Positions 13,367 through 16,932 of a stretch of 42,743 nucleotides of DNA are shown in pieces. The stretch lies in NCBI GenBank assembly GCA_019695295.1, contig JAIBAH010000027.1, forward strand, positions 1-42,743. The letters are read 5' to 3'. The first letter of the stretch is position 1. Every line of letters starts with the position of its first letter. A model generated the notes under the pieces. It was not told the DNA's origin. It saw only the letters and a list, made by a program, of their open reading frames with translations, and did not search any database. The DNA is from Bacteroidia bacterium. GTDB taxonomy: Bacteria; Bacteroidota; Bacteroidia; J057. The position numbers were made by a program, and so were the translations under genes.

Positions 13367-13999
13367 CTATTCAATCACGATTAATTCCCGTACCGATGAC
13401 TCTCCCTTCTCTATTTTTAGAAAATAAAGACCCGGATTCCAACCGGTAAGGTCAAAAAGTTTTTCATGAATTCCGGGAGGTACATTTTCGGCGGGCAATA
13501 AAGTAAGCTCTTTTCCATCCATACTTATTGCCTTGATTTCCACTCTTTCTCCCCCTGTAGATTCCCACAAAACCCTAAGATTCTCCCCTTTTGCTAAAGG
13601 ATTAGGGTAAAAAGACAAAAAAATTTCTCCGTCTTTATTAAATACTACCTTTTTCCAATTGCTGATAATATATTTATTCGATAGCGTCGAATACATTTTC
13701 ACTCTGTAATAAGAAGCCCCTAAATAAGGTTGAGTGTCTTTCGTCTGATAATAGGTTAAGCCCCCCGTACAAAAGGCTTCCAATCGTTGTACCTCTGAAA
13801 AGGCAACCAAATCCCGACTTTTTTCTACAATAAAATGCGCCGCATCCGGCCCGCAAGGAAACGCCCAATCCACAACGATATGAGTAGGCGTTTTATAAAT
13901 ATCATACTCCCATAAATTAAGCGGCTCATGAACCTCCTGTGCATGAAGAAGAGAGGGTAAGAAAAGGAGGAGGAAGAGGGAGATGGAAATTTGTTTCAT
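13367..13999 (-). CDS. Small secreted protein with T9SS type-A sorting domain
   Basis: A 210-residue protein with a clear Sec signal peptide (about residues 1-20, ending LLHAQ) and a C-terminal type-A sorting domain. That domain begins FYPNPLAKGENLRV (about residue 130) and ends in GLYFLKIEKGESSVRELIVIE. The middle (about 25-125) looks like one beta-sandwich, with VEKSRDLVAFSEVQRLEA and YYRVKMYST similar to the fibronectin-like module often found before T9SS sorting domains. It carries no catalytic motif I recognise. It should pass the inner membrane by Sec and the outer membrane by T9SS. It is divergent from the helicase gene, and its 3' end is duplicated at 8590-8760. Confidence 0.85.
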   Translation of the reverse strand: MKQISISLFLLLFLPSLLHAQEVHEPLNLWEYDIYKTPTHIVVDWAFPCGPDAAHFIVEKSRDLVAFSEVQRLEAFCTGGLTYYQTKDTQPYLGASYYRVKMYSTLSNKYIISNWKKVVFNKDGEIFLSFYPNPLAKGENLRVLWESTGGERVEIKAISMDGKELTLLPAENVPPGIHEKLFDLTGWNPGLYFLKIEKGESSVRELIVIE

Positions 14000-14043
14000 A
14001 CTACTACTTTTTTATTAATAAAACGAAATCAGATAATTTTTAG

Positions 14044-14076
14044 TTGTATCATTTCAAATATAATTCCCGTACTTTG
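14044..14076 (+). promoter_or_regulatory. Candidate promoter of the SF1 helicase gene
   Basis: TTG (14044-14046) and TACTTTG (14070-14076) are separated by 23 bases. The -7 element lacks one of the two spacer bases of TAnnTTTG. It overlaps the divergent minus-strand promoter. Confidence 0.4.
14055..14062 (-). promoter_or_regulatory. -7 promoter element for the T9SS-cargo gene at 13999
   Basis: On the minus strand this reads TATATTTG, an exact TAnnTTTG. It lies 56 bases upstream of the start and back to back with the helicase promoter. Confidence 0.5.
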
Positions 14077-14095
14077 CATTCAGAATACAAACAGG

Positions 14096-16021
14096 ATGAA
14101 ATCAGAAGCAACAATCAAACGTTTTCAGAAGCTATTAAAACTAGAGAAAGAAGAAGACCGGAGGATATATCAGGAGATGGTAATGAAACGGTCGTTGAAG
14201 GAGCAATGTGAAAACGGGGTGACCTGGTATCCGCTGGCGATTAAGCGGATATATATAGGGATGGCAGAGAAAACCGTAGTGGAAGTCGTGCGTACCACAC
14301 AATTGGGAAAGCCCCATGTATTTCAATCGGGGAGTACCATCAGCCTGTTCGGTATGGAAAACGACAAACCCTCAGGGATGACCAGCGGAGTAGTACAGGC
14401 TCTCAGGGGCGACGAAATGAAAATCATCCTGAATACAGAAGACTTCCCAAACTGGCTTACCGGGATGAGATTAGGCGTTACCCTCGATTTTGATGACAAA
14501 ACCTACAAAGAAATGGAATCCGCTTTGGTACAATTGCTCGAAGTGAAGCCCAAAACCCGCCTTGCCGAACTTCGGGAAATTATCTGGGGCGACCAGATGC
14601 CGGCTTTTAAGCGATGGCACACCGAATTTCAGCATACCAAACTCAACGAATCCCAGCGGAAAGCCGTACAGCAATGCCTGGAAGCAGAAGATATCGCCAT
14701 CATACACGGCCCGCCCGGAACCGGCAAAACCACCACCATCGTACAGGCAATTGCCGAAATATGCAGACGTGAACCTCAGGTACTCGTCGCTGCACCCAGC
14801 AATACCGCCGTGGATTTACTCTGCCTGAAATGTGAAGCGGAAGGACTTACCGTCGTACGCCTCGGAAACCCCGCACGCGTGGACGAAGACATTCAGAACC
14901 TTACGCTGGATTCCCGCATTACCCAGCATCCCGATTACTCCGCCCTGAGAAAAATCCGCAAAGAAGCCGAGCAGATAAAAACCAAAGCATTGAAATTCAA
15001 GCGGAACTTCGGAGAAGCAGAAAGAAGAGAAAGGCGCGAACTCCTCGATGAAGCATCAGAACTAAAAGGACATGCACATAAACTCGAAGACTATATTCTC
15101 CATCAGGTACTGAGCAGCGCACAGGTCATTGCCTGCACCCTTACCGGAGCCGCCCATTCCGTACTCGGGAAAAAACGATTTCATACCGTATTTCTCGACG
15201 AAGCCTCTCAGGCATTATCCCCCGCAAGCTGGATTCCCATTTTACGGTCAGACAGAGTCATCTTTGCCGGTGACCACTTTCAGCTTCCGCCAACGGTCAA
15301 ATTTATCGAAGCAGAAAAAGGAGGGCTGAGCGAAACCCTTTTTGATACCTGTATCCGGAACAAGCAGTCAGACGTAATGCTCGACACCCAGTACCGGATG
15401 CACAAACACATCATGTATTTTTCCGGAAAACAATTTTACGAAGGCAAACTCAAAGCAGACGAAAGCGTGAAAAACCGCAACCTCGGCCCCGGATTTCCGC
15501 CTGTAGAATTTGTGGACACAACCGGCTGCGGATTTGAAGAACGGAAAAATCCCGACACACTCAGTACTGCCAATCCGGAAGAAGCCTCCCTTTTACTCAA
15601 GCATCTTGCCATACTGCTGAATGAAATTACCGCCACGATACCCGAAATTCTGAATCCGGATTTTTCCATCGGAATAATTTCCCCATACAAAGAACAAGTA
15701 CAGGTAATCCGCGAGCAACTCTGGAACAGTCCGCTTTTTGAACAATACCTCGAATTTATCACCGTGAACACCATTGACGGATTTCAGGGTCAGGAAAGAG
15801 ACATTGTTTATATCAGTCTGGTACGTTCCAACGAAAACGGAGAAATAGGCTTCCTCAAAGACAAAAGAAGGATGAACGTAGCTTTGACTCGTGCCCGCAA
15901 AAAATTAGTCGTCGTTGGAGACAGCGGAACCATCGGAAACTATCCTTTCTACAAGGAGTTTCTGGATTATATTGAAGCCATTGACGCATACAAAAGTGCG
16001 TGGGAGTTTAACTATGATTAG
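14096..16021 (+). CDS. IGHMBP2/SMUBP2-type superfamily 1 DNA/RNA helicase
   Basis: A cytosolic 641-residue helicase. An N-terminal beta-barrel-like part (about 50-160) precedes the motor. Motor motifs are Walker A GPPGTGKTTT (about 205), Walker B DEASQA, motif III GDHFQLPPT, then QYRMH, TIDGFQGQERDIVYISLVRSN and NVALTRARKKLVVVGD. This set and order is that of the IGHMBP2/Upf1-like SF1B group, which unwinds 5' to 3'. The open frame begins at 13991, but that would overlap the divergent gene and its promoter. MKSEATIKRFQKLL at 14096 fits the family start, and the ATG is preceded by AACAGG. Confidence 0.92.
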   Translation: MKSEATIKRFQKLLKLEKEEDRRIYQEMVMKRSLKEQCENGVTWYPLAIKRIYIGMAEKTVVEVVRTTQLGKPHVFQSGSTISLFGMENDKPSGMTSGVVQALRGDEMKIILNTEDFPNWLTGMRLGVTLDFDDKTYKEMESALVQLLEVKPKTRLAELREIIWGDQMPAFKRWHTEFQHTKLNESQRKAVQQCLEAEDIAIIHGPPGTGKTTTIVQAIAEICRREPQVLVAAPSNTAVDLLCLKCEAEGLTVVRLGNPARVDEDIQNLTLDSRITQHPDYSALRKIRKEAEQIKTKALKFKRNFGEAERRERRELLDEASELKGHAHKLEDYILHQVLSSAQVIACTLTGAAHSVLGKKRFHTVFLDEASQALSPASWIPILRSDRVIFAGDHFQLPPTVKFIEAEKGGLSETLFDTCIRNKQSDVMLDTQYRMHKHIMYFSGKQFYEGKLKADESVKNRNLGPGFPPVEFVDTTGCGFEERKNPDTLSTANPEEASLLLKHLAILLNEITATIPEILNPDFSIGIISPYKEQVQVIREQLWNSPLFEQYLEFITVNTIDGFQGQERDIVYISLVRSNENGEIGFLKDKRRMNVALTRARKKLVVVGDSGTIGNYPFYKEFLDYIEAIDAYKSAWEFNYD

Positions 16022-16024
16022 GAG

Positions 16025-16723
16025 TTAAATTCTGAGTCCTAATCCCAGTGCGGCATAACCGCTCAAGGGAGAATGAATATTTTGGAAGTACGTTCTCCTT
16101 AAATCCAATGGCAATGATGGATTTTCTGTGCGAATCATTGTATAACCCCATGTCAAAAAATTAAAAGCAAAATTCCCATCGGCAACCCACCTTTTTCCCA
16201 AAGAAAGCTGGATCCTTGGAACCACCGAAAATCGGGTGCTAATCGTAGCCGCACTTCCTCCAAAATTACTATTGTTTACGGGGGAAAAATCACTTTGGAA
16301 TAAATAAGGGTGTGCGGAAAACCCCAGTTGAAGGCATATCTTTTTTACGGAATAAATCCTCCTGAAATAGTCATATCTTACAGAAACAATCCATTCACGT
16401 CGGTTTTGTTTTCCAAGATTAATCACGGAATCTGCCTGTTTCAGTAGTATCGGGCTTTCATTATCCGAATGGAAATAAAGACGGCTCAATAAAAACTCAT
16501 GGGTATTCTTTTTATCCGCATTTAAGCATAGCCCTAAAGAAACTGGATGATGCAGACGAAATGGAATTTCATAACCCGTATAAATAGTGTCTTTTTTTCC
16601 CCAGTCAGATTCAGGCATAAAAGCCATATTTCCATAAATCTTTACATCATGACCAAATTCACGCCCCTGTCCCAGTATGTAGCCTGAAAATATTAACAGA
16701 AAGCCTAAAAGAAATTGTTTCAT
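16025..16723 (-). CDS. Putative outer-membrane or secreted beta-rich protein, unrecognised family
   Basis: A 232-residue protein with a signal peptide (MKQFLLGFLLIFSGYILGQ, cleaved about residue 19). Alternating hydrophobic strands follow, with aromatic residues at strand ends and a terminal GYAALGLGLRI. This looks like a small beta-barrel, but the last residue is Ile, not Phe/Tyr/Trp, and there is no sorting domain. I do not recognise a family. Its stop is 3 nt from that of the convergent helicase gene. About 60 nt upstream is the terminator of the structured leader at 16785-16932, so it may be controlled by attenuation. A weak separate promoter (TTTCTTTG near 16740) is also possible. Confidence 0.7.
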   Translation of the reverse strand: MKQFLLGFLLIFSGYILGQGREFGHDVKIYGNMAFMPESDWGKKDTIYTGYEIPFRLHHPVSLGLCLNADKKNTHEFLLSRLYFHSDNESPILLKQADSVINLGKQNRREWIVSVRYDYFRRIYSVKKICLQLGFSAHPYLFQSDFSPVNNSNFGGSAATISTRFSVVPRIQLSLGKRWVADGNFAFNFLTWGYTMIRTENPSLPLDLRRTYFQNIHSPLSGYAALGLGLRI

Positions 16724-16784
16724 CCGTTTTTTAATACAAAGAAATCAAAAAAAATGATTCTTTGAAATGCAAAATTTTTAGTCC

Positions 16785-16822
16785 AAAAAAAAATCGCTGC
16801 CGGATTCACATCCAACAGCGAT
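16785..16822 (-). terminator. Strong intrinsic terminator of the leader/small RNA
   Basis: Minus strand: arms 16822-16810 and 16805-16793 pair over 13 bp (two G-U), loop GTGA at 16809-16806, then a run of Ts to 16785. No other minus-strand gene lies to its right, so it must end the transcript that begins at the promoter at 16925-16932. Confidence 0.8.
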
Positions 16823-16864
16823 ATGCTTACGCTCACCCTGTAAAACAAGTTAATTGACGATAAT

Positions 16865-16912
16865 TTAATTAAGTAGAATTATTGGGTTTACTCCTTTAAT
16901 TATCTCTACCAT
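16865..16912 (-). CDS. Possible 15-codon leader peptide
   Basis: The frame encodes MVEIIKGVNPIILLN with stop TAA, beginning about 8 nt from the predicted transcript start. Eight of 15 residues are Ile, Leu or Val, as in branched-chain attenuator leaders. However, AT-rich DNA gives such residues by chance, and no ribosome binding site is visible. Confidence 0.25.
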   Translation of the reverse strand: MVEIIKGVNPIILLN

Positions 16913-16924
16913 TTAATTACACGA

Positions 16925-16932
16925 CAAAGGTA
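16925..16932 (-). promoter_or_regulatory. -7 promoter element of the leader/small RNA
   Basis: On the minus strand it reads TACCTTTG, an exact TAnnTTTG. The -33 region (about 16955) has TGTTTTT, not a clean TTG. Confidence 0.62.

Follow-up and report, generated by a model that had tools for sequence, protein, structure and literature searches.

It has been reported that, in Bacteroides thetaiotaomicron, a start site and an intrinsic terminator were both present in eight of nine candidates confirmed by northern blot, and that 27 of the 49 high-confidence small RNAs (sRNAs) are strain-specific, with a quoted G+C content of 35% (PMC7366714). In Flavobacterium, the -7 box has been mapped as spanning positions -12 to -5 (PMC9723704). 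The locus described here lies in a 42,743-nt stretch of DNA from a Bacteroidia bacterium (contig JAIBAH010000027.1), referred to below as the window. Positions 16785-16932 are explained most simply by a short minus-strand RNA that starts at its own promoter and ends at its own terminator, a view that the sequence supports. The features of the locus are as follows.

13991-16021: IGHMBP2-family helicase gene, beyond ORF 16025-16723
16025-16723, minus: downstream ORF of 232 aa, no known family
16744-16737, minus: TTTCTTTG, weak candidate for a promoter of gene 16025-16723 itself, one mismatch to TAnnTTTG
16792-16785, minus: U-run after the terminator, read from the sequence
16822-16793, minus: intrinsic terminator stem-loop, 13 pairs with a GUGA loop, from folding and shuffles
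16841-16815, minus: candidate antiterminator hairpin, -9.0 kcal/mol, excludes the 5' arm of the terminator
16912-16865, minus: 15-codon ORF MVEIIKGVNPIILLN, ATG 8 nt after the predicted start; may be chance
16920-16785, minus: predicted transcript of about 134 nt, from promoter plus terminator
16932-16925, minus: sigma-A -7 box TACCTTTG, an exact TAnnTTTG; the same element precedes gene starts in window and genome
17125-17592, plus: DUF4296 gene on the upstream side of the candidate, followed by pheT

The reading that we prefer, and to which we give an even chance, is that the region encodes a lineage-specific, sigma-A-driven, intrinsically terminated sRNA of about 134 nt. The housekeeping sigma factor, acting at the TACCTTTG box, would initiate near 16920, and the polymerase would halt at the 13-bp hairpin and U-run (16822-16785). 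The resulting RNA of about 134 nt would have a 5' part that is A/U-rich and mostly unfolded, and a 3' end protected by the terminator hairpin. The unstructured 5' part might pair with mRNAs, in the manner of other Bacteroidota intergenic sRNAs. Promoter and terminator are features seen in the sequence, whereas we infer that there is a transcript, that it is independent of the downstream gene and that it has targets.

Promoter box and terminator

The exact TAnnTTTG element that an earlier, sequence-only reading had placed on the minus strand is indeed present, as TACCTTTG at 16932-16925. The window contains 37 TAnnTTTG sites, most of them inside genes; nine are intergenic, though intergenic DNA makes up only 10% of the window, and seven of these nine lie 18-52 nt upstream of a start on the same strand. 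Among 30 loci of the genome with TACCTTTG, many have the site directly ahead of an ORF, and a near-identical stretch of 15 bases, CCCCCTACCTTTGT, precedes another gene. The enrichment before starts, the TACCTTTG sites in the genome and CCCCCTACCTTTGT indicate together that the box marks a genuine class of promoters here, as it does in Flavobacterium (PMC9723704) and Bacteroides (PMC7366714), and the element looks functional in the genome. No -33 TTTG was seen in the sequence at the usual spacing upstream of the box. Whereas the other near-gene intergenic boxes are 18-52 nt from their genes, TACCTTTG is separated from the next gene by 209 nt and is followed by the terminator. Taking the box as -12 to -5, according to the Flavobacterium mapping (PMC9723704), transcription would start at about 16920.

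Near-identical promoter-like stretches were also observed on another contig of the same genome (C5; locus L077, positions 45-52 and 422-429). They are 377 bases apart and read GGAAAAAG(A/T)GC(T/C)CTACCTTTGTATCAGAA; no ORF of at least 60 codons begins within 70 bases, and the pair is possibly a duplicated RNA or short gene.

The terminator at 16822-16793 is far beyond chance. Its 13 uninterrupted pairs have an energy of -20.1 kcal/mol (z -6.8 versus shuffles), and two adjacent U-G pairs become A/C mismatches on the opposite strand. All that had been claimed of it before, i.e., the 13 bp, the GUGA loop, the U-run, the two G-U pairs and the restriction to the minus strand, was borne out. In 42.7 kb, the only stems of at least eight uninterrupted pairs followed by a T-run were this one and another at the very start of the window, and 10 shuffled windows yielded no stem of at least 12 pairs. 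Across the more than 20 genes of the window (1-42743), hardly any strong uninterrupted intrinsic terminators occur. This scarcity suggests that the organism mostly ends transcription by other means; it also means that the combination of box and terminator could mark further candidates. The 12-nt tip GGAUGUGAAUCC of the candidate's terminator recurs elsewhere in the class, in a terminator that another genome has behind a thiol-peroxidase-like gene (L066, 1630-1658); this probably reflects a favoured GUGA tetraloop.

Folding of the 5' part and conservation

The whole 148 nt folded better than shuffled sequences (z -3.1), a value accounted for by the terminator alone. The first 100 nt, the 5' domain, gave -13.2 versus a shuffle mean of -13.9 (z +0.24), the 66-nt region containing the helix proposed near the 5' end gave a z of -0.56, and the 5' ensemble was split among several structures, each with a probability below 0.5. 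In the supposed 12-bp helix, a 3-nt bulge interrupts the 12 pairs, whose probabilities are about 0.2-0.47, and neither this stem nor the alternative pairings suggested along with it rose above chance. A pseudoknot between ACCC and GGGU can be drawn, yet 707 of 1000 shuffles offered some 4-bp contact equal to it. The earlier inference of a small RNA or attenuator is thus supported as regards a short, independently started and terminated transcript, but not as a "structured leader", for which there was no fold signal outside the terminator.

The sequence-only reading had also proposed a comparison with Rfam and a covariance search in related genomes, and both were run. Rfam gave zero matches in the window at curated thresholds, and at permissive ones the best sub-threshold match reached 21.9 bits versus a cut-off of 58, so that nothing meaningful was found for the region at either threshold. 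BLAST searches of the own genome, of 60 relatives and of two relatives via their helicase loci returned short chance matches only, and those of 395 genomes of the class isolated short matches only; the best match falls inside a coding gene and was rejected as a homologue. No convincing homologue was obtained with a single-sequence covariance model in 149 related genomes, nor with laxer filters within the family. Since the opposite strand of the window scores 21 bits with the same model, matches of 18-24 bits were taken as background. Those inspected were other terminators or hairpins without the 5' part, two of which (in G127 and G012) overlap coding genes, and a 32-bit match was due to the common GGAUGUGAAUCC terminator tip. 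As judged by synteny via the helicase and DUF4296 neighbours, the intergenic region is not kept in the relatives inspected, and the plasmids, phages and viral contigs searched gave nothing useful. The nearest relatives are distant, with 45% identity of the DUF4296 protein in the same genus. Because only distant relatives were available and there were no homologues to compare, the lack of covariation data is no evidence against structure.

An identity as 6S RNA was not supported, as the region did not match RF01685 and a long rod interrupted by a central bubble was not significant. In the organism's own genome, which is 97% complete, 6S-Flavo (RF01685) was unmatched and the small SRP RNA was found.

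Among the features by which intergenic sRNAs of Bacteroidota are recognised, the region has a sigma-A TAnnTTTG promoter, without the -33 box, and an intrinsic 3' terminator; conservation in relatives, which about half of the known sRNAs show and which is thus not strictly defining, was not detected by BLAST or the covariance model. Given that 27 of the 49 high-confidence sRNAs of B. thetaiotaomicron are strain-specific (PMC7366714), the absence of homologues is not unusual.

The downstream gene and alternative readings

The U-run is separated by 61 nt from the ATG of the minus-strand ORF 16025-16723. The region therefore occupies, on the same strand, the leader position that had been assigned to it, but the label of "outer-membrane-like" for the 232-aa product was not supported, with zero matches in Pfam or NCBIfam; its N-terminus is signal-peptide-like, judged by eye only. 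Within the family searched, its relatives are partial only (28-29%), at four loci in three other genomes. At these loci, whose genes are perhaps not orthologues, the covariance model found no match and there was no such leader. Pairing of the candidate with the start of the adjacent gene was no better than that of shuffled sequence (757 of 1000). Just upstream of the start at 16723, an inverted repeat, CAAAGAATCA / TGATTTCTTTG, flanks a T-run (16737-16766) and overlaps the weak -7-like box; it is perhaps an operator, or an A/T-rich chance occurrence.

An alternative that we consider possible, if rather doubtful, is that the region is a terminated leader, i.e., a transcription attenuator, of gene 16025-16723. 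Polymerase starting near 16920 would usually halt at 16785, and the gene would be read when the hairpin at 16841-16815 formed in place of the terminator, in response to a signal such as ribosome stalling on the I/L/V-rich ORF of 15 codons or the binding of a factor. The location of the region, 61 nt upstream of the gene and in the same orientation, is consistent with this, as is the lack of a strong separate promoter, the one-mismatch TTTCTTTG being the sole box in the remaining 61 nt. The hairpin, which is mutually exclusive with the terminator, has a z of -2.7 and ranks by local stem energy among the lowest 10 of 500 shuffles, although it was found post hoc. Neither this hairpin nor the short ORF figured in the earlier reading. 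However, the terminator is more stable by about 11 kcal/mol, with a pair probability near 1, and its 5' arm gains no more than usual from pairing with all of the sequence upstream (130 of 500 shuffles). The ORF MVEIIKGVNPIILLN starts 8 nt past the predicted start and is rich in I, L or V (8 of 15 residues), and leader ORFs suggestive of attenuation have been reported in B. thetaiotaomicron (PMC7366714), but ORFs of at least 12 codons often arise by chance (112 of 1000 shuffles, 11%). Moreover, the Rfam search gave no known aptamer, the loci of the gene's partial relatives have no such leader, and the gene is unlike an amino-acid biosynthesis enzyme. We regard as very unlikely a new kind of leader-peptide attenuator, one by which a Bacteroidota lineage would control a probable envelope protein of no known family through translation of a 15-residue peptide rich in I, L or V.

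It also seems very unlikely that the transcript is a short mRNA with its own terminator for the 15-aa small protein MVEIIKGVNPIILLN. Its ATG follows the beginning of the -7 box by 21 nt, inside the 18-52 nt range of the other genes of the window, and the frame is open to a UAA, but the ORF is very short, others of its length commonly arise by chance in sequence of this kind, and BLAST in relatives and class genomes found no homologue. Somewhat less improbable is the absence of any functional RNA, with a -7 box present by chance and a terminator acting on stray or antisense transcripts. That the window contains 37 TAnnTTTG sites, mostly intragenic, would agree with this, as would the missing -33 element and the lack of conservation in the relatives searched, whereas the co-occurrence of an intergenic box and a lone strong terminator in the right order, strand and spacing argues against it. 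As for the sRNA, the absence of a convincing promoter of the downstream gene in the 61 nt counts against it and favours a leader, as does the possible antiterminator hairpin; furthermore, the sRNA has no homologue in any relative searched and no target signal at the adjacent gene. We nevertheless favour the sRNA over the leader, although sequence alone cannot separate it from an attenuator, and both could be true at once, as a leader that has been stopped can also serve as an sRNA.

Comparison with known systems

If transcribed, the candidate would add one lineage-specific sRNA or terminated leader to a lineage for which none turned up in the sources searched; it holds nothing surprising in kind, and its significance is low unless expression or function is demonstrated. 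With 6S-Flavo RNA (RF01685), unmatched here and genome-wide, it would share only being a Bacteroidota small RNA. Leader-peptide transcription attenuators resemble it in the short ORF, the alternative hairpins, the terminator and the gene on the same strand, but here the antiterminator is weak, no codon run is tied to gene function and there is no conservation. Rfp18 of Flavobacterium psychrophilum (PMC9723704) is alike in its TAnnTTTG promoter and in being an independent short transcript, as we infer for the candidate; it is, however, genus-conserved and strongly folded, and the candidate is neither, as far as testable. The intergenic trans-acting sRNAs of Bacteroides, i.e., GibS and the 49 B. 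thetaiotaomicron candidates (PMC7366714), are alike in the sigma-A -7 box, the intrinsic terminator and a G+C of about 35% (0.33 in the candidate), as well as in partial unfolding and frequent strain-specificity. The points of difference are expression, a conserved seed and a target, and the candidate was compared with known RNAs at the sequence level through Rfam. By the B. thetaiotaomicron criteria of a start site and an intrinsic terminator (PMC7366714), it would rank as an ordinary candidate, of a kind already known.
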